In this document: one piece after another, positions 16,251 to 31,762 of the stretch
How positions within the stretch are numbered: position 1 is the stretch's first letter
Layout of the letters: every line of letters begins with the position of its first letter
NCBI RefSeq assembly: GCF_015354245.1
Contig: NZ_JADKYZ010000006.1
Location: 248,001-312,000, forward strand
Length of the DNA: 64,000 nucleotides
Direction of reading: 5' to 3'
Source: Diaphorobacter caeni
GTDB taxonomy: Bacteria > Pseudomonadota > Gammaproteobacteria > Burkholderiales > Burkholderiaceae_C
Made by a program: the position numbers and the translations under genes
Notes under the pieces: model-generated
Seen by the model: the letters and a program-made list of their open reading frames with translations, nothing else
Databases searched by the model: none
What the model was told of the DNA's origin: nothing

Positions 16251-18740
16251 ATGTCCGTACGCAGAGCCAAGCGCGCCATCAGCAACAAGCTGCGCAGCAA
16301 GAACCATTCAACCCGCAAACTGGCGATCCCGCTGCTGATCGTCGCCAGCGGCATTGGCGCGATCAGCCATGCGCCGCTTGCGCTCGCGCAGACGACAACC
16401 GCAGCGCAGGCCGCGCGCAGCTACGACATTCCCGCAGGGCCGCTGAGCCAGGCGCTGACACGGTTTTCGGCGGAGGCCGGCATCTATCTCGTCGGCAACG
16501 GCAGCATGGCCGAGGGCAAGAGCACGGCGGGGCTCAAGGGCAGCTACAGCGTATCGGCCGGGCTGTCGGCATTGCTGGCCAATTCGGGGCTGGAGGCTTT
16601 TGTACAGGCCGATGGCAGCTACGGGCTGCGCGCGCGCAGGGCGGATGCGCAGGTGAGCCCACCCGTTGCGGCGGGCGCCACTGCACTCGCAACGGTCACC
16701 GTCACCGCCAAGGCGGATGCGGGCACCGCATCCGAAGGCACTGGCAGCTACACGCAGAAGGGCCCGAGCCGTACGGCCACCGGGTTGAATCTGTCGCTGC
16801 GCGAAACGCCGCAGTCGGTGTCGGTGATGACGCGCCAGCGCATGGATGACTTCAAGCTCGAGACGCTGACCGACGTGATGGAGCAGACGCCCGGCATCGC
16901 GGTCTACCGTCAGAACAACGCCTCGGATTTTCAGGCGCGCGGCACCAGCGTGAATCTGCAGACCGATGGCATGGCGCAGGTCACGAGCGGCTGGTACTAC
17001 CTCACCAGCACCATGTTCTCACTTGACGACATGGCCGAGGTCGACCGTGTGGAGGTGCTCAAGGGCTCGTCCGGTCTGGTGGTCGGCAAGGGCAATTACG
17101 GCGCGACCGTGAACATGATCCGCAAGCGTCCAACGCGGGATTTTCAGGCCAACGTGCGTGCCAACGCGGGCAGTTGGGACACCTACCGTGCGCAGGCCGA
17201 TGTGGGTGGGCCGCTCAACGAATCGGGTTCGGTGCGTGGCCGGCTGGTGGCGTCGGCCATGGATTCGGGCGGCTTTCGCGACTTTGAAAAGTCCAGCAGC
17301 AAGATGCTGTTCGGCACGCTGGAGGCCGATCTCACGCCCGACACGCTGCTCAACGTCGGCCTGACCTACCGCGAGCGCGACGCCAAGGGCATAGGCACGA
17401 CCCAGCCCATCCAGCGCTATACGCGCGCAGGCGGAGAAGTGGCGTGGATGCCGCGCTCGTTCAACACCGGAGCGCCCTGGGGCGGCTACGAGCAGAAGGG
17501 GCTGAATCTGTTCGGCAGTCTGGAGCAGCGCCTTGCCGATGACTGGACGGCGGCCCTCAAGTTCTCGCACCAGCGAGTGACCATGGACGACATGATCGCG
17601 GGCTACTACTACGATCAGGACCGCGCGAGCTTCGGCCGCTGGCGCAACATGGAGACCGACAACTGGACCGTGAATCTGGACGTCAAGGGCTCGTTCGATC
17701 TGCTTGGTCGCTCGCATGAGCTGCTTGCAGGAGCGGGCATCTCGCGCTTCTACAGCAATGTGCAGTTGCCGCTCAACTCGCTGAATCTGGTGCCGCTCGA
17801 CCAGCTCGGCGTGAACATGGCCCAGGGCGGGGCCGCGCTGCCCATGCCCGACTACAGCAAGCTGAACTACGGCGACAACAGCTTCAGCCAGAAGCAGCGT
17901 TATGCCTATGCGGCCGGGCGCTTCCGCGTGGCCGATCCGCTGCAGGTGATCGCGGGGCTGCGCGTCACGCGCTTTGAAGAGCGCGACACCACGCCGTTCT
18001 GGTGGAACTACGACATGAAGGAAAACGGCGTGGTCACGCCGTATGCGGGACTGGTCTACGAGGTCCATCCGAACGTGTCGCTGTATGCGAGCTACGCCAA
18101 CATCTTCCAGCCGCAGACCGCGCAGGACGAACGTGGCACCACGCTCAAGCCCGAAGAGGGCAACACTTACGAGATCGGCGCCAAGGGCGAGTTCTTCGAC
18201 AAGCGCCTGAACGCCAGCATCGCCCACTTCTGGATGAAGACCAAGAACACGGCGGAGGAAAGCGGCGGACTCACACCCGGCGGCGACACCGCCTACCGCG
18301 CGGTCTCTTCGGCCACCCGGCGCGGTTGGGAGCTCGAGCTGTCGGGCGAACTCGCGCGCGGCTGGCAGGCGCAGGGCAGTCTGGTGCAGCAGAGCAGCTC
18401 GCTCAACAACGCAAGCAAGTATCCCAAGCACCAGTTCAAGCTCGGTACGACCTACCGCTTCGACGGCGACCTTCGCGGCCTGACAGTGGGCGCATCCACG
18501 CGCTGGCAGACCAAGACCTCGGTGAACAACAGCGCCGCCACGTTGTCGCAGGACGCCTATGCGCTGTTCGATCTGATGGCACGCTACCAGGTCGACCCGC
18601 ATCTCTCGTTCAGCCTGAACATCAACAATGCGTTCGACAAGCAATATCTTTCAGGGCTCACCAACTTCAGCGCGTCAGGGCTTTTCTACACATGGGGCGC
18701 GCCACGCAGCGTGAACGTGGGCATGCGGTATGACTTCTGA
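16251..18740 (+). CDS. TonB-dependent siderophore receptor with STN signalling domain
   Basis: An 829-aa FpvA/FecA-like transducer. A long signal peptide ends near residue 46 (APLALAQ). The STN signalling domain follows (about 55-110; YDIPAGPLSQALTRFSAEAG), then the plug (ETPQSVSVMTRQRMDDF) and a 22-strand-type barrel ending in VGMRYDF. The STN domain contacts the FecR-type regulator encoded just upstream, so the three genes form a complete cell-surface signalling unit. The siderophore is not identifiable; no biosynthesis genes are nearby, so a xenosiderophore is possible. Confidence 0.94.
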   Translation: MSVRRAKRAISNKLRSKNHSTRKLAIPLLIVASGIGAISHAPLALAQTTTAAQAARSYDIPAGPLSQALTRFSAEAGIYLVGNGSMAEGKSTAGLKGSYSVSAGLSALLANSGLEAFVQADGSYGLRARRADAQVSPPVAAGATALATVTVTAKADAGTASEGTGSYTQKGPSRTATGLNLSLRETPQSVSVMTRQRMDDFKLETLTDVMEQTPGIAVYRQNNASDFQARGTSVNLQTDGMAQVTSGWYYLTSTMFSLDDMAEVDRVEVLKGSSGLVVGKGNYGATVNMIRKRPTRDFQANVRANAGSWDTYRAQADVGGPLNESGSVRGRLVASAMDSGGFRDFEKSSSKMLFGTLEADLTPDTLLNVGLTYRERDAKGIGTTQPIQRYTRAGGEVAWMPRSFNTGAPWGGYEQKGLNLFGSLEQRLADDWTAALKFSHQRVTMDDMIAGYYYDQDRASFGRWRNMETDNWTVNLDVKGSFDLLGRSHELLAGAGISRFYSNVQLPLNSLNLVPLDQLGVNMAQGGAALPMPDYSKLNYGDNSFSQKQRYAYAAGRFRVADPLQVIAGLRVTRFEERDTTPFWWNYDMKENGVVTPYAGLVYEVHPNVSLYASYANIFQPQTAQDERGTTLKPEEGNTYEIGAKGEFFDKRLNASIAHFWMKTKNTAEESGGLTPGGDTAYRAVSSATRRGWELELSGELARGWQAQGSLVQQSSSLNNASKYPKHQFKLGTTYRFDGDLRGLTVGASTRWQTKTSVNNSAATLSQDAYALFDLMARYQVDPHLSFSLNINNAFDKQYLSGLTNFSASGLFYTWGAPRSVNVGMRYDF

Positions 18741-18794
18741 GTCGACGCATTCGAAACAAAGCCCGGCTGAGCCGGAGACAGGGGAGTCGCGGCG

Positions 18795-20438
18795 ATGAAG
18801 GAGGGCTTTCGCCAATGCATGGCCTGGCTGCACACCTGGACGGGCCTCGTGGTGGGCTGGGTGCTGTTTTTCGTCTTCGCGACCGGCACGCCTGGCTATT
18901 TCCAGTACGACATCACGCGCTGGATGCAGCCCGAGCGTCCGCAGGTACAGCGCGTGGCGATTCCCGAAGCCGACAGGGCGCAGGTGCTTGGCAGGGCGCT
19001 GGATCGCCTCGAACAGCTGGCGCCTACGGCAAACAGCTGGCGCATCACGCTGCCGCACGAAGCGTTGTCGCCGCGCGGCTGGCAGGAGTTTTCGATCCGC
19101 TGGGAGGAAGCTCCCAAGCCCGGTCATGAGCGCGGCGTGAGCGGCAACGAGCGCCTCGATCCTCTGACCGGCGCGCTGCTGCCGGGCGAGGTGCAGCCGC
19201 GCGCCACGGCGGGCGGGTTCGGTCTCTACCGCATGCACTACATGCTGCGCTATCTGCCCTATGACTGGGCGATCCGGCTGGTCGGCATCTGCACCATGCT
19301 GATGCTGTTGGCCATATGTAGCGGCGTGGTCGCGCACAAGCGGATCTTCAAGGACTTCTTCACATTCCGTCCCGGCAAGGGGCAACGCAGTTGGCTGGAT
19401 GCGCACAACGCTGTCAGCGTCATGGCGCTGCCGTTCTTTCTGATGATCACCTACAGCGGTTTGGTGTTCTTTCTCTTCACCTACATGCCTGCCGGGCGCG
19501 ACGTGCAATACGGCAGCAATCAGGCGGCCAACAAGGCCTTCTATGACGAACTGCTCGACCGCCATGCCCACGCGCCGTTTGCACGCCCGAAGGCGGACAT
19601 CGCGGCGCTTGTGGATCAGGCCGAAAAGCGGTGGGGGCCTGACCGCATCGCGTCCGTCGTCGTCGAGAGGCATGTGGGTGACGGCGAGGTTGCGGAAATC
19701 GTCATCACCCATACGCAGGGCGGCCAACTGGATTTTTGGAATCCCGCCAAGCTGCGATTTGATGCCGACACGGGCGCTGCGCTCCCTGAGGAGCCCAACT
19801 CCGGTGGTGACGCGCGACTCACGCAGAGCGTGATGCTGAATCTTCACGAAGGACTGTTCGCGGGCATCTGGGGGCGCTGGCTGTACTTTGTCGCGGGGCT
19901 GCTCGGCTGCGCCATGATCGGCACGGGATTGGTGCTCTGGACCGTCAAACGCCGCAGACACCATCTGGCAAGCGGCAGGGACGTTGACGAGCGTTTCGGC
20001 GTGCGTTTGGTGGAGATATTGAACGTGGCCACCATCGCCGGTCTGCCGTTGGCGCTCGCGGCGTATTTCTGGGCCAACCGGCTGCTGCCGCTGGAGATTG
20101 CGGATCGCTCGGCATGGGAGTTCCATGCGGTGTTCGCCGCGTGGCTGGGTACTTTGTTCTACGCGATGGCGCGCCCGCTCGCGCGCGCCTGGGTGGAGTT
20201 GCTGTGGGGCAGTTGCCTCGCGTTCGCGTTGGTGCCGGTGATCAACGCGCTTACCACCGACCGCCATTTGCTCAACAGCCTCGCGGCTGGAGACTGGGTG
20301 TTTGCCGGTTTCGATCTCACTCAGATCGGTCTGGCCGCGCTTTTCGCGCTGATGGCCGTGAAGGTGCAACGGCGTCTGCTGCCCGCCTCCCGAACGGTCG
20401 CGCAACCACATTCCGCAACGGCGAAGGAGGCCGCATGA
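18795..20438 (+). CDS. PepSY-domain membrane protein of the iron-uptake type
   Basis: A 547-aa inner-membrane protein of the PepSY-associated TM family, often beside siderophore receptors (PiuB/FoxB-like) where members act in ferric-siderophore reduction or handling. Helix 1 (WLHTWTGLVVGWVLFFVFATG) is characteristic, and several more helices flank PepSY-like periplasmic loops. It lies 54 bases after the receptor and overlaps the next gene by 4 bases (ATGA). Ferrisiderophore reduction here is inferred. Confidence 0.88.
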   Translation: MKEGFRQCMAWLHTWTGLVVGWVLFFVFATGTPGYFQYDITRWMQPERPQVQRVAIPEADRAQVLGRALDRLEQLAPTANSWRITLPHEALSPRGWQEFSIRWEEAPKPGHERGVSGNERLDPLTGALLPGEVQPRATAGGFGLYRMHYMLRYLPYDWAIRLVGICTMLMLLAICSGVVAHKRIFKDFFTFRPGKGQRSWLDAHNAVSVMALPFFLMITYSGLVFFLFTYMPAGRDVQYGSNQAANKAFYDELLDRHAHAPFARPKADIAALVDQAEKRWGPDRIASVVVERHVGDGEVAEIVITHTQGGQLDFWNPAKLRFDADTGAALPEEPNSGGDARLTQSVMLNLHEGLFAGIWGRWLYFVAGLLGCAMIGTGLVLWTVKRRRHHLASGRDVDERFGVRLVEILNVATIAGLPLALAAYFWANRLLPLEIADRSAWEFHAVFAAWLGTLFYAMARPLARAWVELLWGSCLAFALVPVINALTTDRHLLNSLAAGDWVFAGFDLTQIGLAALFALMAVKVQRRLLPASRTVAQPHSATAKEAA

Positions 20439-22969: not shown

Positions 22970-23570
22970 TAGTCCCGTCTTCCCTAGACACGCTTGATCC
23001 GCTGGGAATGACGTCTTTCGAACTCTACCGGAGACACATCTCAGGCGGTGCTGTAACGCCTCTTTGGGTTGTAGAACATCTCGATGTAGTTGAAGGCATC
23101 GCCCTCGCTTCATCGCGCGTTGGATAGATCTGTCGACGAATACGTTCACGCCTGAGTAACCGGAAGAAGCTCTCGGCTACGGTGTTGTCATGACAGTTGC
23201 CCCGATGGCTCATGTTGGAGAGCAGATTGTGATCGTCCAGGAAGTCCTGCCAATCATGGCTGGTGAACTGACTGCCCTGATCTGAATGCACGATGACAGC
23301 ACGCGTGGGTCGGCGACGCCACAGAGCCATCACCTACGCATCAAGCACCAAGCCTGTACTGACCCGCCAGCCCGCAATCCAGCGGACTTGGACATCAATC
23401 ACAAAAGCCACAAACATCTGCTCCTGCCATGTCGGGGACAAAGGTGAAGTCCAAGACTCGAAACTGGTCCGGACGCTGCGCTTTGAATTGCCGATTGAGC
23501 ACATTCGATGAGGCCTTCAAGCGGAAAGCCGCCATGACCACTTGCATCCGCCCTTGCTACTGAAATATGC
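22970..23570 (-). mobile_element. Decayed IS3-family transposase (orfB) fragment
   Basis: The minus strand encodes broken pieces of an IS3-type integrase core: SNVLNRQFKAQRPDQF, then after a frame change FVAFVIDV and AGWRVSTGLVLDA, a stop, then VIVHSDQGSQFTSHDWQDF and NCHDNTVAESFF with two catalytic acidic regions, then another frame change (DAFNYIEMFYNPKRRYST) with a further stop. At least three lesions make it inactive. The 5' part (orfA, start of orfB) is absent. It sits between the arsH remnant and the kai operon. Confidence 0.8.
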
Positions 23571-23578
23571 CAAACCAA

Positions 23579-25897
23579 TCAGGCAGCTCTTTCGTCGTTG
23601 CTGAGCATCTTGATCTTGTCGGCCAGTTCGGCGATCTCAAAGGGTTTGGTCAGTACATGCATGCCGGGTGCCAGCAGGCCGTTGTCCACGGTGGCCACTT
23701 CGGCATAGCCGGTGATGAACAGTACCTTGAGTGCGGGCCATTTCTCGCGCACGGCGTCGGCCACCTGGCGGCCGTTGAGGCCGCCGGGCAGGCCCACGTC
23801 GGTGATGAGCAGGTCGATCTCGATGGGTCCTTCCAGAATGCGCAGGGCGGAGGGGCCATCTTCGGCGGTGGTCACCACATAGCCGGCCTCTCGCAGCTCT
23901 TCGGCGATCAGGGTGCGGATGGTGGCTTCGTCGTCGATCAGCATGATGCGCTTGCCTTTGCCGTTGGGCACGGCGCTGGTGTTGCGGGTGCTCTCCATCG
24001 CATCCTCTTCGCTGAAATGGCGTGGAAAGTACATGCGCATCGTCGTGCCCTGGCCGGGCTCCGAATGCACGCGCACCTGACCGCCCGATTGGCGCACAAA
24101 GCCGTACACCATCGACAGGCCCAAGCCCGTGCCCTGGCCGGTGGGCTTGGTGGTGAAAAATGGGTCGAAAATGCGGTTGATCAGTTCTCTGGGAATGCCG
24201 ACGCCGGTGTCGGTGACGCTCAGCGCCACATACTCTCCGGGAGTCAGTTCGTGGGTCGCCGCTTCCAGTCCCTCCACCAGATGGTTGCTGGTCTCGATGA
24301 TCAGCTTGCCGCCTGCGGGCGCCATCGCGTCGCGTGCATTGATGCAGAGGTTGAGCAGGGCGTTCTCGAGCTGCGGCACGTCGATCCTCGCAATCCACAA
24401 GCCTTCGCCATCGACCACCGTGAGCGAGACGTTGGGCCCAATGGAGCGCTCGATGAGTTCCTGCATGCCCGTGACCAGACGGTTGATGTCGGTGGCGCGC
24501 GGGTCCAGCGTCTGTCTGCGGGCGAAGGCCAGCAGGCGCTGGGTGAGCGATGCGGCGCGCTTGATGCCTTCGCTGCCCATGTCCAAGTAGCGATCGATGT
24601 CGTTGTAGTGCGCCTTCTGCAGGCGCCGGCGTATCAGCTCGAGGCTCACGCTCATGCCGGCCAGCAGATTGTTGAAGTCGTGCGCGATGCCGCCGGTGAG
24701 TTGGCCCACGGCCTCCATTTTTTGTGACTGGCGCAGGGCTTCCTGAGCGCCTATCAGCTCCTGCGTGCGGGCTTGTACGGTGGCCTCCAGACTCTCGTTG
24801 ACTTCACGCAGACGCGCCTCGCTCTGGCGCAGGGCAGCAGCGTTGTTGACGCGATCAACCGCCGCCTCGGTGCGCTCCGCCACTTCGCTGATGAAGGACA
24901 GGTCGGCATTCGTCCAGTGGCGAACTTGGGCGTTGTGGATGAACAGCACCGCATACAGGCGCCCTTCCTGCAGATAGGGCACGCACACCAGTGATCGAAT
25001 GTCGAGGCTGTCCAGCAGCGCCGCCATATGGCGGGTGCGCGGGTCGATTCTCGCGTCGCTGACGCTGACCGTGGCGCGATGCTCCAGCTCGCGGATCAGG
25101 TCTCCGAAGTCCTTGGCACGCACGCGATGGGCAATGGTGGATGCGCCGGGGGACAGCCATTCGCAGGCCACGCGCATGTTGTTGTCCGGAAGATCGAAGC
25201 GCACAAAACCGGTGCGCAGCACTTCCAATGTTTCGCCCAGCATCTGCACGGCTTTGTCGCCCACATCGACAGGGGTATCCAGCTCGCGCAGCGACTCGCC
25301 AAAGCGGGCAAGGGCATCGCGGCGCATGGACGTGCGGCGCGACTCCGTGACGTCGCGCACCACAAGCAAAGACCCAAAGCTTTGACCCGAAGGATCGAGC
25401 AGCGTGGACAGACTCTGCTCGACATAGATCGACGAGCCATCGTGCAGGCGATGGATGGCAGGGATGTCTGCGCGCGGCGGATCGGAGGGGAGTGGCGAGC
25501 CGGAATTCAGCGGCTCCGGCCGCACCGACAGATGCTCGTCCTGGATTTCGGTGAACAGGCTGGCCTTGTCACGCCCCAGAGCGGCATCGCCCTGAATGCC
25601 ATAGCGCTGCTCGGCGGACTGGTTCAGGAAGATGAGCTTGTCGTCGCGGTCGAAAGCGAAGACCGCGTCCTTCATCTGCAGCAGCACGCCTTGGCGCAGG
25701 CGATTGTCGGTGGCGTTGGCGCTTTCCAGAATGTAGATGTCGTCGTTGACGACCAGTGCATCCACTTCGCCGGCGTGGATGGCTCCCAGCGTGTCTTCCA
25801 GTTCGCGCAGGCGCAGGCGCAGTTCCTGATTCTCCGCGGCCAGCGCAGCGATGTCCGATGGGGTGTCTGCCCCGGTTGAGTGGCCGGAGCGCATCAT
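23579..25897 (-). CDS. Hybrid PAS-GAF sensor histidine kinase with receiver domain
   Basis: A 772-aa soluble hybrid kinase. A coiled region (about 14-50, [20 protein letters not shown]) leads to a PAS domain (about 68-185), a GAF domain (about 196-352), and a second coil. The kinase core follows with phospho-acceptor His406 in [10 protein letters not shown]-box Asn520, and DTGVGIP and GTGLGLS loops. A C-terminal receiver (648-765) has Asp655/656, acceptor Asp700 and Lys751. There is no membrane segment, so it senses a cytoplasmic signal. It overlaps the second kaiB by 4 bases, so it is probably the output kinase of the KaiC module. Confidence 0.93.
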
Positions 25898-26241
25898 GGA
25901 CTCGCAGGCGGTTGCAGGCAGAACCAGTCGCGCATGCGCGCAACATCCGAAAGGTCGCCGACCACACGGCGACTGGGCAGAGGCGCATACCGCACCAGCG
26001 TGGGCGATGCAATCACCTGGTCACGCTTGGCATCGGCCACATGGGTGGCAATGTCGAGCACGTTCAGCTCGTAGGCACCGGGCAGGTGCGCATTCAGAAA
26101 CTGGCGGGCATTGACGATGGCCCGAGCCGACAGGGGCGATACCGCACTCACATAAAGGCGAAACCGCACCACCTCTGCGGCGGCCTCGGCGCTGAGCGAT
26201 TCGAGGGTGGAATGGCCTTCGGGAGGGACTTCGCTTTTCAT
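25894..26241 (-). CDS. kaiB: KaiB-like protein, divergent copy
   Basis: A 115-aa thioredoxin-like KaiB-family protein, the second of two in the operon. FRLYVSAVSPLSARAIVN and LPGAYELNVLDIATHVADA match the first half, and SPTLVRYAPLPSRRVVGDLSD the second. After GDLSD the usual EKVLIGLD-type end is replaced by VARMRDWFCLQP. Start and stop overlap the neighbouring genes by 4 bases each. KaiB proteins bind KaiC CI rings after a fold switch; whether this copy does so or instead contacts the kinase is unknown. Confidence 0.85.
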   Translation of the reverse strand: MKSEVPPEGHSTLESLSAEAAAEVVRFRLYVSAVSPLSARAIVNARQFLNAHLPGAYELNVLDIATHVADAKRDQVIASPTLVRYAPLPSRRVVGDLSDVARMRDWFCLQPPASP

Positions 26242-26597
26242 GACGACGAGATCGGCGCGCCATTGCCGGAGGAGATGGGTTGGATGTCGAGACCCACCAG
26301 CGCGCGCTCCTGGTTGGACAGGTCGCCGATGATGCGGCGCATGGGTTCGGGCATCTGGCGTACCACGGTGGGCACCGCCAGAATCTGGTCTCCCGCAGCG
26401 AGCGTGGGCGTTTGGATCAGGTCAATCACCTCTATGCTGTAGCGGCCCGCCAGATGTTCTTCGCACAACTGTTCCAGGTTTTGCAGGGCCGTTTCGGCGC
26501 GCGTGGTTTTGCCGGCGATATACAGACGCAGGCGCCATTCAGGCGTGGTGGCGGTGGGGGCCGCTTCATCGCGAGGAGTGAGCGTATTGGCTGCCAT
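26238..26597 (-). CDS. kaiB: KaiB-like protein, canonical copy
   Basis: A 119-aa KaiB-family protein with an N-terminal extension of about 20 residues. The core (21-105) is canonical: WRLRLYIAGKTTRAETAL, YSIEVIDLIQTPTLAAGDQI, AVPTVVRQMP and RRIIGDLSNQERALVGLD. It starts 3 bases after the kaiC stop and overlaps the next kaiB by 4 bases. It is the better candidate for the fold-switching KaiC partner. Confidence 0.93.
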   Translation of the reverse strand: MAANTLTPRDEAAPTATTPEWRLRLYIAGKTTRAETALQNLEQLCEEHLAGRYSIEVIDLIQTPTLAAGDQILAVPTVVRQMPEPMRRIIGDLSNQERALVGLDIQPISSGNGAPISSS

Positions 26598-26599
26598 GG

Positions 26600-28348
26600 C
26601 TACTTCCTGTCCTGCTTTTTGCGCCGACCATTGGATACGGTGCTGCGCTCCGCGGAGATGCTGCGGGCGCGGTTCAGCGCGCCTTCGGCTTCCAGCTTTT
26701 CGCGTGCAATATCGAACTTGACTTGGCCTTCCCGCTCGCGCTCGGCCACATTCAGTGCGGCGATCTGGGCGTCCAGCGCCTTGCGCCGGTCCGAGAGATC
26801 GCGCATGCGGCGCTCGTGGTCGCGATCACGCAGGGCCGTCGTTGCCTGCACCTGGGCCTCGTGGGCGACGCGCGCGGTGCCGGTCAATACCTGGTCGCCA
26901 TACATGTAGACATCAATCAGGTCCACGCCATGGTTGGAAAACACGAATTCACGCACCTGGTTGGAGTGCGGCATGCCGCGTGACTTGAGTACCTGCAGCG
27001 TGCGGGTGCGCTCTCCATTGAATGCGATGTTGCTGAGCCACAGCCACGTGTCCATCAGCGACGATACGCCGAGTTGAGAGCCGGGCGTGCCGGCGCTCTC
27101 GGTGTTCAGGCTGGTGAACAGCGCGGTGATGCCTTCGGTCTTCAGAAAGTCGATCAGGCGCATCAGCGCCAGTGCCAAGTCGCTCTCGTTCTGGTGGTTG
27201 GTCAGGTTGCTGATGGGGTCCACGGCGACCACGCTGGGCTTGAACTCGGTCACGTGGTTGTACATCTGCACGAGATGCTGCTCCAGCCCCTGCAGCGTGG
27301 GGCGCGTGGCTTCAACCCGCAGCAGGCCCTTGTCGATCCAGCGCTGCAGCTTGATGCCGATGGATTGCATGTTGCGCACCAACTGGCTGCACGCCTCTTC
27401 GTAGGCGAACAGAACGGCGCGCTCGCCGCGCGCACAGGCCGCATCCACGAAGGCAGCGGCGACGCTGCTCTTGCCGGTGCCGGGCGATCCCGAAATCAGC
27501 AGGCTGCTGCCGCGGTACACGCCGGCGCCACCCAGCATCCGGTCCAGCCCGACGATGCCGGTGGACACGCGCTCGTTGGAGACCTGGTGCTCCAGCGTGA
27601 GCGAGGTGATGGGCAGCACCGAGATACCGTGGGCGCTGATGAGAAACGGGTATTCGTTGGTGCCGTGGGCGGAGCCGCGGTACTTGACCACGCGCAGGCG
27701 CCGGGTGGAGACCTGGTCGATGATGCGGTGGTCCAGCAGGATCACGCAATCGGCGACATACTCTTCGAGACCGTAGCGGGTAAGCGCATTGTTGCCCCGC
27801 TCGCCGGTGATGACGGCGGTGACGCCGCGCTCCTTGAGCCAGCGGAAAAGACGGCGCAGTTCGGCGCGCAGGACGGCATGGTTGGCGATATCGCTGAACA
27901 GCGTCTCGATCGTGTCGAGCGCCACACGTTTGGCGCCCACGGAATCGATGGCATGGCCGATGCGGATGAACAGGCCCTCCAGGTCGTAGCTGCCGGCTTC
28001 CACCAGCTCGGCAGGGTCCACGCGGATGAAGTCCATCGCCAACTGGCCCTTGCGCTGCATCGCGTCCAGGTCGTAGCCGATGGAGCGCATGTTGGCGGTG
28101 AGCTCTTCGGCTGTCTCTTCGAAGAGGATGATGGCTCCCGGCTCTTTGTACTGAGCCGCGCCCCGCACCACAAACTCCGATGCCAGCAACGTCTTGCCGC
28201 AGCCCGCCGCGCCGCACACCAAGGTGGGCCGCCCGGTCGGCAGCCCGCCTCCGGTGATTTCGTCGAGGCCTCGAATGCCGGTGGGCGTCTTCGCCAGCGT
28301 CAGGTCTGGACGGACGGCTTTTTTGGAAGAATTGCTGCGCATAGGCAT
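26600..28348 (-). CDS. kaiC: KaiC-family double-domain ATPase/autokinase
   Basis: A 582-aa two-domain RecA-like KaiC. From the ATG at MPMRSNSS, CI has Walker A GAAGCGKT at 46-53 and catalytic Glu77/Glu78; CII has Walker A GSPGTGKS at 287-294 and Glu317/Glu318, close to the S. elongatus numbering. At the CII phosphosite two serines (429-430) stand where cyanobacterial KaiC has Ser-Thr, and Ser424 stands for Thr426. After CII a charged coiled-coil tail of about 90 residues replaces the KaiA-binding tail; no kaiA is present. A TTG ten codons upstream is an alternative start. Confidence 0.94.
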   Translation of the reverse strand: MPMRSNSSKKAVRPDLTLAKTPTGIRGLDEITGGGLPTGRPTLVCGAAGCGKTLLASEFVVRGAAQYKEPGAIILFEETAEELTANMRSIGYDLDAMQRKGQLAMDFIRVDPAELVEAGSYDLEGLFIRIGHAIDSVGAKRVALDTIETLFSDIANHAVLRAELRRLFRWLKERGVTAVITGERGNNALTRYGLEEYVADCVILLDHRIIDQVSTRRLRVVKYRGSAHGTNEYPFLISAHGISVLPITSLTLEHQVSNERVSTGIVGLDRMLGGAGVYRGSSLLISGSPGTGKSSVAAAFVDAACARGERAVLFAYEEACSQLVRNMQSIGIKLQRWIDKGLLRVEATRPTLQGLEQHLVQMYNHVTEFKPSVVAVDPISNLTNHQNESDLALALMRLIDFLKTEGITALFTSLNTESAGTPGSQLGVSSLMDTWLWLSNIAFNGERTRTLQVLKSRGMPHSNQVREFVFSNHGVDLIDVYMYGDQVLTGTARVAHEAQVQATTALRDRDHERRMRDLSDRRKALDAQIAALNVAEREREGQVKFDIAREKLEAEGALNRARSISAERSTVSNGRRKKQDRK

Positions 28349-28363
28349 AACACCTTGATAGAA

Positions 28364-28369
28364 ATTATA
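28364..28369 (-). promoter_or_regulatory. Possible -10 element of the kai operon
   Basis: TATAAT occurs on the minus strand 15 bases before the chosen kaiC ATG. No good -35 hexamer is seen at 16-18 bases, and this would leave a very short leader. The 28349-28865 stretch (over 500 bases) holds no gene I can support: this motif, a hairpin at 28677-28697, and GC-rich DNA. Confidence 0.3.
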
Positions 28370-28676
28370 CGTAGTCAACCTGTACTGCGATTGACTGATT
28401 GTATTGTCAGAATCCCGGATGCTATAGGGCTCCTCTCACAACCACTCCCTGTCCGGCGCCGCATTCAAACTTGGAGGTGCTGATCGTCCGGCAACAGCCA
28501 CCGTTGTTTCGGAACGGATTGCAAGCACCCGACGGGACGGCGAGACGACGCGGAAACGACGGTGAAACGACGCTAAGGTGTGTCTGGCTCGGCATGTGTC
28601 ACTGGCGGTTTCAAATGATTCAGGGAAATGCCTAATATCAGGCAGAAAGTGACGATGGGTACATTCCTCCGGGAAG

Positions 28677-28697
28677 GGGCCGCAAAAGCGGCCCTTT
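28677..28697 (+). terminator. Hairpin in the kai/TRAP intergenic region
   Basis: GGGCCGC-AAAA-GCGGCCC followed by three T residues on the plus strand, 168 bases ahead of the TRAP binding-protein gene. It could end a small RNA or a leader transcript, since no plus-strand gene lies before it. The T run is short. Confidence 0.45.
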
Positions 28698-28865
28698 GAC
28701 GTCGATTTCGGATGCATGCGCTTTCACGTGCACCATCTGCGTGCAGGCCGAGTGCCGCTTCGACGCTGGTTGCGAATCGCAGGTCGCAGGAGTTTTTGGG
28801 GTGACGGGCGGATGGGCGGACGGGCGGAAAAAGGGTTTTCGACATCACTTTTTTGGAGATATTCC

Positions 28866-29858
28866 ATGAAGCGCGGACTTTTCACACTTTCGGCGGTTGC
28901 GTTGTTCTCCTTGACCTGCGCGGTGGCCCAGGCGCAGACGAAATGGGACCTGGCGGCCGCCTATCCCGCGTCGAACTTCCACACAGAGAATCTGACCAAG
29001 TTCGCGGCCGACGTGGATCAGGCGACGGGGGGCAAGCTCAAGATCACGGTGCACGCGAACGCGGCGCTGTTCAAGGCCAACGAGATCAAGCGCGCGGTGC
29101 AGGGCGGTCAGGCGCCCATCGGTGAGGTCCTGCTCGCCAATTTCGAGAACGAGAACCCCATCTATGGCGCGGACGGCATTCCGTTTCTCGCCACGTCCTA
29201 CGCGGATGCCAAGCGCCTGCTGGACGCGCAGCGTCCCGTGCTCGACAAGCTGCTGGCCTCGCAGAACATGAAGCTGCTGTACTCCGTGGCATGGCCGTCG
29301 CAGGGCATCTATTCGAAGAAGGAGCTTGCCTCCGTGGCCGATCTGAAAGGCATCAAGTGGCGTGCCTACAGCCCGGCCACCGCCAAGATCGCCGAGCTGG
29401 TCGGCGCGCAGCCGGTGACGATTCAGGCCGCCGAACTCTCGCAGGCGATGGCGACCGGCGTGGTCGAGGCGATGATGACGTCGAGCTCCACCGGCTACGA
29501 CAGCAAGATCTACGAAAGCATCAAGAACTTCTACGACCTGCAGGCCTGGCTGCCCAAGAATGCGGTCATCGTGAACAGGAAGGCGTTCGATGCGCTCGAC
29601 AAGCCCACGCAGGATGCGCTGGCGGCCGCAGCCGCAGCCGCCGAAAAGCGCGGCTGGGCGCTGAGCCAGGAGAAGACGGCCTTCTACATGAAGGGCCTTG
29701 AGGACAAGGGCATGAAGATCCACAAGCCGTCGCCCAAGCTGGCGCAGGACATGCGCCAGGTGGGTGACGTGATGCTCTCCGACTGGCTGAAGAAGTCCGG
29801 TGCCGATGGCGAGGCCATCGTGAGCGCGTATCGCAAGAGCGCGCCGGCCGCCAAATAA
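28866..29858 (+). CDS. TRAP transporter periplasmic binding protein (DctP family)
   Basis: A 330-aa DctP-family extracytoplasmic binding protein with a signal peptide ending near residue 23 (AVAQAQ). KWDLAAAYPASNFHTENLTKF opens the first lobe; the family arginine that clamps a carboxylate is probably in GIKWRAYSPATAKI. GGAG lies 9 bases before the ATG. It heads a three-gene TRAP set. The ligand is most likely an organic acid but cannot be named. Confidence 0.93.
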   Translation: MKRGLFTLSAVALFSLTCAVAQAQTKWDLAAAYPASNFHTENLTKFAADVDQATGGKLKITVHANAALFKANEIKRAVQGGQAPIGEVLLANFENENPIYGADGIPFLATSYADAKRLLDAQRPVLDKLLASQNMKLLYSVAWPSQGIYSKKELASVADLKGIKWRAYSPATAKIAELVGAQPVTIQAAELSQAMATGVVEAMMTSSSTGYDSKIYESIKNFYDLQAWLPKNAVIVNRKAFDALDKPTQDALAAAAAAAEKRGWALSQEKTAFYMKGLEDKGMKIHKPSPKLAQDMRQVGDVMLSDWLKKSGADGEAIVSAYRKSAPAAK

Positions 29859-29887
29859 AAGCAAAAAGCAGGCGGGAAACCTCCATC

Positions 29888-30424
29888 ATGCTGCGTCGCT
29901 TTCTTGATCGCCTGTACCTTGCTGCAGGCGTTTTGGGAGCCAGCTGCATCGCCCTGATCTGCGTGCTCATGATCGCCCAGAGCATCATGCGCGAGTTCGG
30001 GGCGCGCACTGGCGCGATCAACGACATCGTCGCCTGGCTGTGTGCCGCGGCGGCCTTTCTGGCCATGGCCTATGCGTTCAAGAACGGCGACTTCGTGCGC
30101 GTGACCCTGCTGCTCGAGAAGGTCAAGCCCGCGCATCGCCGGGCGCTGGAAATCCTCTCGCTCGTCATCGGCAGCGTTTCGACGGCCTATCTCGCATGGT
30201 CGGCGTGCCTCTTCACCTACGAGAGCTGGGAGTTCAACGACATCGCGCAGGGCCTGCTGCCGCTGCCGATGTGGATTCCGCAGATGACCTTCGCGGTCGG
30301 CTCGGTGCTGCTGCTGGTGGCCGTGGTGGACGAGCTGGTCATCGTGCTCCGGGGCGGCGTGCCGACCTTCGTGCGCGTGGTGGAAGAGCGGCATGCGCGT
30401 GGCGATTTCTCGTCCGACATTTGA
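29888..30424 (+). CDS. TRAP transporter small membrane subunit (DctQ family)
   Basis: A 178-aa membrane protein with four helices, matching the DctQ subunit that pairs with DctM. YLAAGVLGASCIALICVLMIAQSIMREF is the first helix and its cytoplasmic end. It lies between the binding-protein and DctM genes with gaps of 29 and 27 bases, the standard TRAP order. Confidence 0.92.
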   Translation: MLRRFLDRLYLAAGVLGASCIALICVLMIAQSIMREFGARTGAINDIVAWLCAAAAFLAMAYAFKNGDFVRVTLLLEKVKPAHRRALEILSLVIGSVSTAYLAWSACLFTYESWEFNDIAQGLLPLPMWIPQMTFAVGSVLLLVAVVDELVIVLRGGVPTFVRVVEERHARGDFSSDI

Positions 30425-30451
30425 CGACGACATCGATCCAGAAAGAATCCC

Positions 30452-31762
30452 ATGGACGTTCTGATGATAGGCGGCATCCTGCTGCTGTTGATGATGCTGC
30501 TGCTCAGCGGCGGAGTCTGGATCGCCATGACGCTGGCGATCTGCGGTTGGGTCGGGCAGGCTTTTTTCACCAGCACGCAGCCGGGCAAGAACCTGTTCTC
30601 GGCCTTCTGGGAAAGCAACGCGAGCTGGGAGCTGGCGGCCTTGCCGCTGTTCATCTGGATGGGAGAAATCCTGTTCAGAACCAAGCTCAGCGAGGAAATG
30701 TTCGAGGGCCTGAGTCCCTGGCTCAACCGCGTTCCCGGCCGCCTGATGCACACGACGATCCTCGGCTGCGGCATCTTCGGCTCGGTGTCGGGCTCGTCGG
30801 CTGCAACCTGCGCGACCATCAGCAAGGTCGCCCTGCCGGAGCTGCTGCGCCGTGGCTACGATGAAAAACTGGCGCTGGGTTCGCTCGCCACTGCCGGCAC
30901 GCTGGGCATTCTGATTCCGCCGTCGATCACCATGGTGGTCTATGCGGTGGCGGCGGACGCTTCGATCATCCGCATCTTTCTGGCCGGGTTCCTGCCGGGC
31001 ATTCTCCTGATGCTGCTGTTCTCGGGCTACATCGGCTGGTGGAGCCTGCGCAACCCGGGCAAGGTGCCCGCGGCCGATCCACCGTCGAGCTTCATGCAGA
31101 AGGTGAAGAAGTCCGGCAATTTGATTCCGGTCGCGGTGCTGATCGTCTTCATCATTGTCGTGCTCGTCACCGGCTACGCCACGGCGACGGAATGCGCGGC
31201 TTACGGCGTGTTCGGCTCGCTGGGCCTCGCGCTCTGGAGCCGCACGCTGACCTGGGAGAACTTCTGGGAAGGCCTGATGGGTACCACCCGCACCAGCTGC
31301 ATGATCATGTTCATTCTGGCGGGTGCGGCCTTTCTCACCAAGACCATGGCGTTCACCGGCATCCCGCGCGAACTGGCCGAGTGGGTGAACTCGATGCACC
31401 TGTCGCCGTTCGCGCTGATCAGCGTGCTCGTGGTTGTCTATCTGGTGCTGGGCACGGCGCTTGACGGCATCAGCATGATCGTGCTGACCAGCGCGGTGGT
31501 GCTGCCGATGATCCAGCAGGCGGGCTTCGACCTGATCTGGTTCGGCATCTTCATCGTGCTTTTGGTGGAGATCGCCGAAGTCACACCACCCGTGGGCTTC
31601 AACCTGTTCGTGCTGCAGAACATGACCGGCAAGGACAGCACGACCATCGCCCTCGCGGCCATCCCGTTCTTCTTCTGCCTCGTGGTGTGCATTCTGCTGA
31701 TCACCGTGTTCCCCGAGATCGTGACCATCCTGCCGGATGTCGTCATGGGCAAGGAAAAATAG
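30452..31762 (+). CDS. TRAP transporter large membrane subunit (DctM family)
   Basis: A 436-aa DctM-type permease with about 12 membrane segments, the channel of a sodium-dependent TRAP importer. GILIPPSITMVVYAV and the repeated half EVTPPVGFNLFVLQ are family signatures, as is FGSVSGSSAATCATI. A terminator hairpin at 31818-31860 follows. Confidence 0.94.
   Translation: MDVLMIGGILLLLMMLLLSGGVWIAMTLAICGWVGQAFFTSTQPGKNLFSAFWESNASWELAALPLFIWMGEILFRTKLSEEMFEGLSPWLNRVPGRLMHTTILGCGIFGSVSGSSAATCATISKVALPELLRRGYDEKLALGSLATAGTLGILIPPSITMVVYAVAADASIIRIFLAGFLPGILLMLLFSGYIGWWSLRNPGKVPAADPPSSFMQKVKKSGNLIPVAVLIVFIIVVLVTGYATATECAAYGVFGSLGLALWSRTLTWENFWEGLMGTTRTSCMIMFILAGAAFLTKTMAFTGIPRELAEWVNSMHLSPFALISVLVVVYLVLGTALDGISMIVLTSAVVLPMIQQAGFDLIWFGIFIVLLVEIAEVTPPVGFNLFVLQNMTGKDSTTIALAAIPFFFCLVVCILLITVFPEIVTILPDVVMGKEK

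Follow-up and report, generated by a model that had tools for sequence, protein, structure and literature searches.

A kaiC-kaiB-kaiB-kinase operon of Diaphorobacter caeni with a kaiB-linked kinase module and two KaiB families

A stretch of 64,000 nucleotides (nt) from the betaproteobacterium Diaphorobacter caeni (assembly GCF_015354245.1, contig NZ_JADKYZ010000006.1, positions 248,001 to 312,000; hereafter the window) carries kaiC, two kaiB genes and a gene for a soluble hybrid kinase with PAS, GAF, HisKA, HATPase and receiver (REC) domains, in tandem and in the same direction on the minus strand. We propose, with a probability of about 60%, that this operon encodes a KaiA-free timing and energy-state unit of the KaiC2 type with its own reader kinase. 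We observe the genes and their order, intact catalytic residues in KaiC, a split of the two KaiBs between separate paralog families, and a near-exclusive linkage to kaiB of a module that heads the kinase; the chemistry of KaiC in this species, the docking of the module on Kai proteins, the direction of signalling and the cue are what we infer.

The operon and its KaiC

The KaiC of the window matches Pfam PF06745 (351 bits), and its nearest solved relative is the KaiC of R. sphaeroides, KaiC-RS (8dba; E 6.5e-185, 619 bits, versus 367 bits for the best entry of another group), with an alignment that spans residues 18-575. Both Walker A motifs (46-53 and 287-295) and both pairs of catalytic glutamates (E77/E78 and E317/E318) are intact, as a preliminary description of this DNA had claimed. 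At the CII phospho-site, S429/S430 align with S413/S414 of KaiC-RS; two serines at this place are given as a mark of KaiC2 in a passage of PMC5520375. The tail after R493 runs for 89 residues, which exceeds the extension of about 50 residues typical of KaiC2, and its coil is predicted. Because of the two-serine pair and this tail, together with the nearest structures, we assign the protein on sequence grounds to the KaiC2/KaiC-RS type. Its NCBIfam scores are 697.9 for NF006799 (above the cut-off of 408) and 348.1 for TIGR02655 (below the cut-off of 546.25). The same features prevail among the 81 KaiCs compared, with two serines at the phospho-site in 78 and a tail of at least 50 residues in 80. 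In the passages available from PMC10076222 (also PMC11372060 and PMC5520375), R. sphaeroides KaiBC is a KaiA-free hourglass in vitro, reset by ATP/ADP and with KaiA-independent phosphorylation, and the earlier suggestion of a KaiBC timer fits this nearest relative.

No match to KaiA (PF07688) was found in the assembly (completeness 100), with Synechococcus elongatus as a positive control, KaiA3-type proteins not being sought. Within that scope the set is indeed without kaiA, and the genome lacks the KaiA of a KaiABC circadian oscillator. A PF07689 search of the genome returned just the two KaiBs of the operon. The tightly packed four-gene set had been described before and is confirmed, including the 4-base overlaps at the kaiB1/kaiB2 and kaiB2/kinase junctions; the kaiC/kaiB1 gap, previously given as 3 bases, is 2 bases (TAG-CC-ATG). 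An in-frame TTG lies at 28378, upstream of the kaiC start at 28348, and a consensus scan of 28250-28900 found no promoter upstream of kaiC.

The Pfam domains of the kinase (Table 1) and its hydropathy agree with the soluble PAS-GAF-kinase-receiver protein described earlier: the most hydrophobic stretch of 19 residues averages 1.26 on the Kyte-Doolittle scale, and there is no membrane segment. Pfam at E 0.1 finds no KaiB-family domain in the kinase, and thus no fused KaiB-like N-domain of the SasA type; a hidden KaiB/SasA-like domain was rejected on this account. Residues ~16-74, which hold the module discussed below, are likewise without a Pfam match at E 0.1.

Table 1 Features of the Kai operon in the window (positions of the window)
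Feature	Position	Strand	Description
kaiC	26600..28348	-	582 aa; KaiC2 / R. sphaeroides type; two P-loops; phospho-site pair S429/S430
KaiC C-terminal extension, residues 494-582	26603..26869	-	putative counterpart of the KaiC-RS coiled-coil tail
KaiBa (first-position KaiB, kaiB1)	26238..26597	-	119 aa; PF07689 87.6 bits; groups with first-position KaiBs
KaiBb (second-position KaiB, kaiB2)	25894..26241	-	115 aa; PF07689 52.4 bits; second-position group, long branch; overlaps both neighbours by 4 bases
Hybrid sensor histidine kinase, soluble	23579..25897	-	772 aa; by motif, H406 presumed HisKA H-box histidine and D700 presumed receiver aspartate
Kinase N-terminal kaiB-linked module (~residues 16-74)	25676..25852	-	long helix, GEVDA turn, beta hairpin, helix (predicted)
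Kinase PAS domain (model residues 78-182)	25352..25666	-	Pfam PAS_4 (74-188) and AlphaFold2 model
Kinase GAF domain (residues 213-346)	24860..25261	-	Pfam
Kinase HisKA + HATPase_c core (residues 398-626)	24020..24706	-	Pfam HisKA 398-462, HATPase_c 506-626
Kinase C-terminal receiver (residues 651-762)	23612..23947	-	Pfam Response_reg

A kinase module linked to kaiB and two KaiB families

The module comprises about 60 residues centred on G(E/D)VDA. In the GTDB family of the window's genome, the gene behind the last kaiB starts with it in all 20 loci (19 by motif search, L031 by eye), and the kinase that follows the module often differs. The window, itself part of the alignment that defines the module, has it in the same place. 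When named genomes were scanned with KaiC as the sole criterion, 564 relatives were confirmed, and in each of the best 80 a model trained on the family places the module directly behind the last kaiB; the result was the same after one flawed row had been left out of the model. These loci are spread over 11 named phyla (Pseudomonadota 33, Bacteroidota 20, Planctomycetota 5, Thermodesulfobacteriota 5, archaea 5, and others), with the proviso that 61 of the 80 record titles are labelled as metagenome-assembled genomes (MAGs), so that individual taxon labels, archaeal included, may be wrong. Two KaiBs are present in 72 loci, one in six, three in one and four in one. The module match begins 19-253 nt past the last kaiB match, and by start codons chosen with a set rule the module gene in 42 loci overlaps the last kaiB or directly adjoins it, in 35 it starts within 50 nt and in three it lies further away. 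Two further module matches in these loci are second module genes downstream; in both cases (L150, 9601-11476; L163, 9695-11554) paired module genes follow kaiC-kaiB-kaiB in Methylococcaceae MAGs.

Searching genomes by the module itself yields a similar picture. In 1,281 genome scans, in which some genomes are repeated, 37 of 41 further module matches adjoin kaiB, where further matches are those at E<=1e-4 outside the query alignment and outside loci already collected. The linked matches comprise 10 of 10 in Pseudomonadota (398 genomes; kaiB 37-96 nt upstream in nine, a 32-residue KaiB remnant in G406), 17 of 17 in Bacteroidota (247 genomes), 6 of 6 in Planctomycetota (154 genomes; all within 613 nt, the gaps of two being 409 and 613 nt), 2 of 3 in the Verrucomicrobiota group (150 genomes), 2 of 3 among second copies in 33 Kai-bearing genomes, and 0 of 2 in the window's own family (299 genomes). 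Several features of the scans bear on these counts: in family-trained scans, matches at the 20 training loci are built in; in many genomes of the family, Pseudomonadota, Bacteroidota, Planctomycetota and Verrucomicrobiota scans a permissive first pass came before, and just its best-ranked candidates were scored for the module; 16 of 38 listed rows of the own-family scan, with E above 1e-4, were dropped; and the Pseudomonadota genomes G443 and G375 recur among the KaiC-picked loci as L175 and L179, with identical module letters. Linkage of the module to kaiB is thus near-exclusive, and the idea that it is a common leader of PAS kinases was rejected. The remnant in G406 (contig C3, locus L241, 4927-5144) stands directly before the module match; its genome yields no KaiB match at E 1e-5, and the locus may be a decaying or truncated cassette.

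An AlphaFold2 (AF2) model of kinase residues 1-200 (51-row alignment, mean predicted local distance difference test (pLDDT) 84.7) predicts a helix (13-41), a hairpin (47-56) and a second helix (59-74) ahead of a PAS fold (78-182). In each of the 13 module proteins scanned by Pfam the module is followed by a PAS match, and what comes next varies: HisKA, HATPase and REC in five (the window, L114, L123, L130, L243), HisKA and HATPase without REC in two (L136, L158), HisKA_2 in two (L143, L174), an HWE kinase in one (R. sphaeroides, L242), and PAS alone with no kinase domain in three (L133, L141, L188). Response_reg was not found at E 0.01 in L136, L143, L158, L174 or L242. Because the domains behind them differ, module and PAS together are the constant part of these proteins. 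The module protein measures just 232-241 aa at seven loci labelled Bacteroidales, Bacteroidetes or Lentimicrobium (L133, L141, L142, L144, L152, L154, L159), among them the scanned L133 and L141.

The two KaiBs of the window both exceed the PF07689 gathering cut-off of 27 and stay below the KaiB equivalog cut-offs (KaiBa and KaiBb, respectively: NF006798, 86.8 and 53.5 versus 110; TIGR02654, 84 and 51.6 versus 145.3). In a tree of 181 KaiBs the label of first or second position changes once, the minimum, across 82 + 82 sequences. This tree, without a fixed root, has 96 columns and leaves 97 of its 174 inner branches open, and the 82 tandem loci include two duplicated pairs (L029/L110, both KaiBs identical; L027/L131, second KaiB identical). 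Position profiles trained on half of the loci placed all 82 held-out KaiBs (41 loci) correctly, and the two loci that hold three or four KaiBs (L134, L138) end with one of type b, the others being of type a. At position 42 of the 2qke chain, Leu is found in 82 of 82 type b proteins and Ile in 96% of type a. First- and second-position KaiBs thus form separate paralog families as judged by their sequences, and a recent tandem copy was rejected because of the tree split and the position profiles. KaiB-RS scores as type a (130 versus 116 bits) and is, as 8fwj, the best solved match of KaiBa; cyanobacterial KaiB is slightly type a, and single KaiBs are by profile a mix of both types. The AF2 model of KaiBb (mean pLDDT 81.6) is thioredoxin-like, with Legionella KaiB, KaiC-bound fold-switched KaiB and the SasA N-domain as its nearest structures; since the model leaves the solution state undecided, it was rejected as proof of a locked fold.

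Distribution and genomic setting

Within a sample of 299 genomes of the window's GTDB family, KaiB occurs in 19, of which 11 have a tandem pair; in the genus it occurs in two of six genomes, the window's counted. Nine other tandem loci of the family have kaiC on the stretch, with KaiCs 57-75% identical to that of the window. A second Kai group in the family (seven loci: L034-L039, L025) has KaiCs of 37-40% identity and a single kaiB, and its module, carried on a large sensor protein, is diverged (HH alignment probability 88%, E 3e-6; whole-protein E 3.8e-5 to 10). The genes that surround the same-genus locus L021 are unlike those of the window, and because of these differing flanks we regard the operon as patchy and probably mobile.

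Around the operon we noted, by eye from translations, an IS3-type transposase remnant at 23025-23333 (-), just past the kinase stop; the 3' flank of the operon is disturbed. Upstream of kaiC, at 28716-31762 (+), are divergent genes of a TRAP-type transporter (a solute-binding and two membrane proteins, by eye). A gene for a TonB-dependent receptor followed by one for a PepSY-like membrane protein (16251-20438, +; by eye) is likely to be an iron-uptake unit.

The reader-kinase reading, its rivals and known systems

By homology with R. sphaeroides KaiBC, the KaiC of the window would form a dodecamer through its C-terminal coil, and phosphorylate itself at S429/S430; KaiB binding and the ATP/ADP ratio would reset it. 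KaiBa would serve as the general KaiB that binds KaiC-CI. Through the GEVDA module at its N-terminus, and perhaps aided by KaiBb, the kinase would read what state the KaiC-KaiB complex is in and pass the signal by way of PAS and GAF to the HisKA-HATPase core, with output by phosphorelay via its own receiver and a further partner. The preliminary description had likewise suggested that the kinase senses the phosphorylation or ATPase state of KaiC and signals through its own receiver, which may hold for this protein; because the receiver is not constant among relatives, it is not the general output. The conserved cassette and the kaiB-linked module make it more credible that the kinase is part of the Kai system, and the module may couple the Kai state to the sensor. 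It is conceivable, at somewhat less than even odds, that with the GEVDA module we have a new docking domain specific to Kai systems, and that this domain defines the reader or writer of KaiC2/KaiB2 timers across many bacteria and a number of archaea, with KaiBb as a second KaiB family specialised in the link between KaiC and reader.

Several observations weigh against a dedicated reader. Operon adjacency, being inherited, is no proof of contact. For four module genes (G165:C1:4797379, G252:C121, G705:C220, G1158:C49) the surrounding stretch that was read contains no kaiB; two of these genes (G165, G705) are in genomes with kaiB elsewhere. The family-trained model finds no module match in 27 of 37 KaiB-bearing Pseudomonadota genomes, and plasmid loci with kaiB ahead of kaiC (Sphingobium L244, Aquisphaera L245) are without the module; because of this, the module marks one Kai lineage and not all, and other Kai lineages use something else. 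Distance matrices of 66 loci co-vary (rank r 0.70 for KaiC-module, 0.73 for KaiC-PAS), as in a cassette that is inherited together. Given KaiC, the correlation of the module with KaiBa is weak (0.167; 0 of 300 permutations as high), as is that of the PAS domain with KaiBa (0.114; 4 of 300), and the module hardly tracks KaiBb (0.075; 41 of 300). KaiBb as demonstrated partner of the module was rejected, as co-variation lends it no support.

The kinase could act as input instead, sensing redox or metabolic state by PAS/GAF and setting the Kai timer, with the module docking it for this purpose. A passage of PMC5520375 suggests that the kinase of the R. sphaeroides kaiBC operon transduces a redox signal to KaiBC, and the constant PAS domain and the PAS-only proteins would suit a sensor that feeds Kai. 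However, kinase cores in 10 of the 13 module proteins and a receiver in five are the usual layout for output or relay, and KaiC-RS itself reads ATP/ADP (PMC10076222, in part); we consider this direction unlikely. Rather improbable, in our view, is an arrangement in which KaiBb, as a separate polypeptide, takes the place of the KaiB-like domain fused in SasA, binding KaiC-CI in the fold-switched state as partner of the kinase and landing on the module. KaiBb is an old, position-fixed paralog beside the kinase gene, and its model resembles the Legionella, fold-switched and SasA N-domain structures; however, AF2 is unreliable for deciding KaiB fold states. Moreover, the NCBIfam kinase model PRK09303, which we take to be the SasA model, touches KaiBa (19.3 bits) and not KaiBb, co-variation does not favour a pairing of KaiBb with the module, and the module occurs with a single kaiB in six of the 80 loci, three of them a-type (L176, L179, L186), and in R. 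sphaeroides, which has one KaiB. That kinase and Kai proteins act separately in a passively inherited neighbourhood, the module being a mere dimerisation cap for PAS, would agree with the predicted helix, hairpin and helix ahead of the PAS fold, with the 50 best Foldseek matches listed for the module-PAS model, all PAS/LOV-type by title or recall, and with the tendency of operons to pass on as blocks. Yet a generic cap would be expected away from kaiB too, where only four of the 41 further matches lie, and bacteria and archaeal bins share the gene order even though their kinase types vary; we consider this explanation very unlikely. The timing unit with its own reader kinase remains our preferred reading.

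The closest known system is the R. sphaeroides KaiBC hourglass (8DBA, 8FWI, 8FWJ), which shares the KaiC2 type, the two serines, the C-terminal coil and the lack of KaiA. On plasmid pRSKD131A of strain KD131 the order is likewise kaiC-kaiB-kinase, the kinase starts with the same module (63 bits), and the KaiB shares its accession (WP_002725098.1) with the KaiB-RS that has been studied. R. sphaeroides differs in having one KaiB where the window has two, and an HWE kinase without receiver in place of the HisKA hybrid. The proto-circadian kaiC-kaiB-PAS histidine kinase set of Rhodopseudomonas palustris shares gene order and a PAS kinase, likened by its description in a legend of PMC4794148, which names one kaiB. 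The Ramlibacter genome paper (PMC3164672, 'Orange group') already contains kaiC-kaiB followed by a histidine kinase; its section 17 describes a KaiB/SasA-like N-terminal 'RtaNt' on kaiB-less kaiC-kinase pairs, and that section has neither the GEVDA module nor two KaiB families. The cyanobacterial KaiABC-SasA-RpaA system has KaiB and KaiC homologs and a histidine kinase in common with the window, which differs in lacking a PF07688 KaiA and in a kinase that carries another N-terminal module instead of a KaiB-like domain. KaiC2/KaiB2 systems, the hourglass and the kaiC-kaiB-kinase order are therefore already known (in part from PMC3164672, section 17, and the legend in PMC4794148). The kaiB-linked module and the two position-fixed KaiB families were not found in the open-licence literature, preprints lying outside that scope, and a text search of it for GEVDALVV returned no paper; the operon thus adds a member to a widespread cassette, and the two features that say most about this cassette seem to be undescribed.

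The R. sphaeroides KaiBC timer has been solved biochemically, and the passages of the literature consulted name no proven output for it. The split into KaiBa and KaiBb suggests that many non-cyanobacterial systems use two non-interchangeable KaiBs, which models with a single KaiB miss. Near-exclusive to kaiB and present on the R. sphaeroides kinase, the module offers a specific candidate for docking, open to test with proteins that already exist, and the kinase that carries it is a candidate for connecting simple Kai timers to the rest of the cell.

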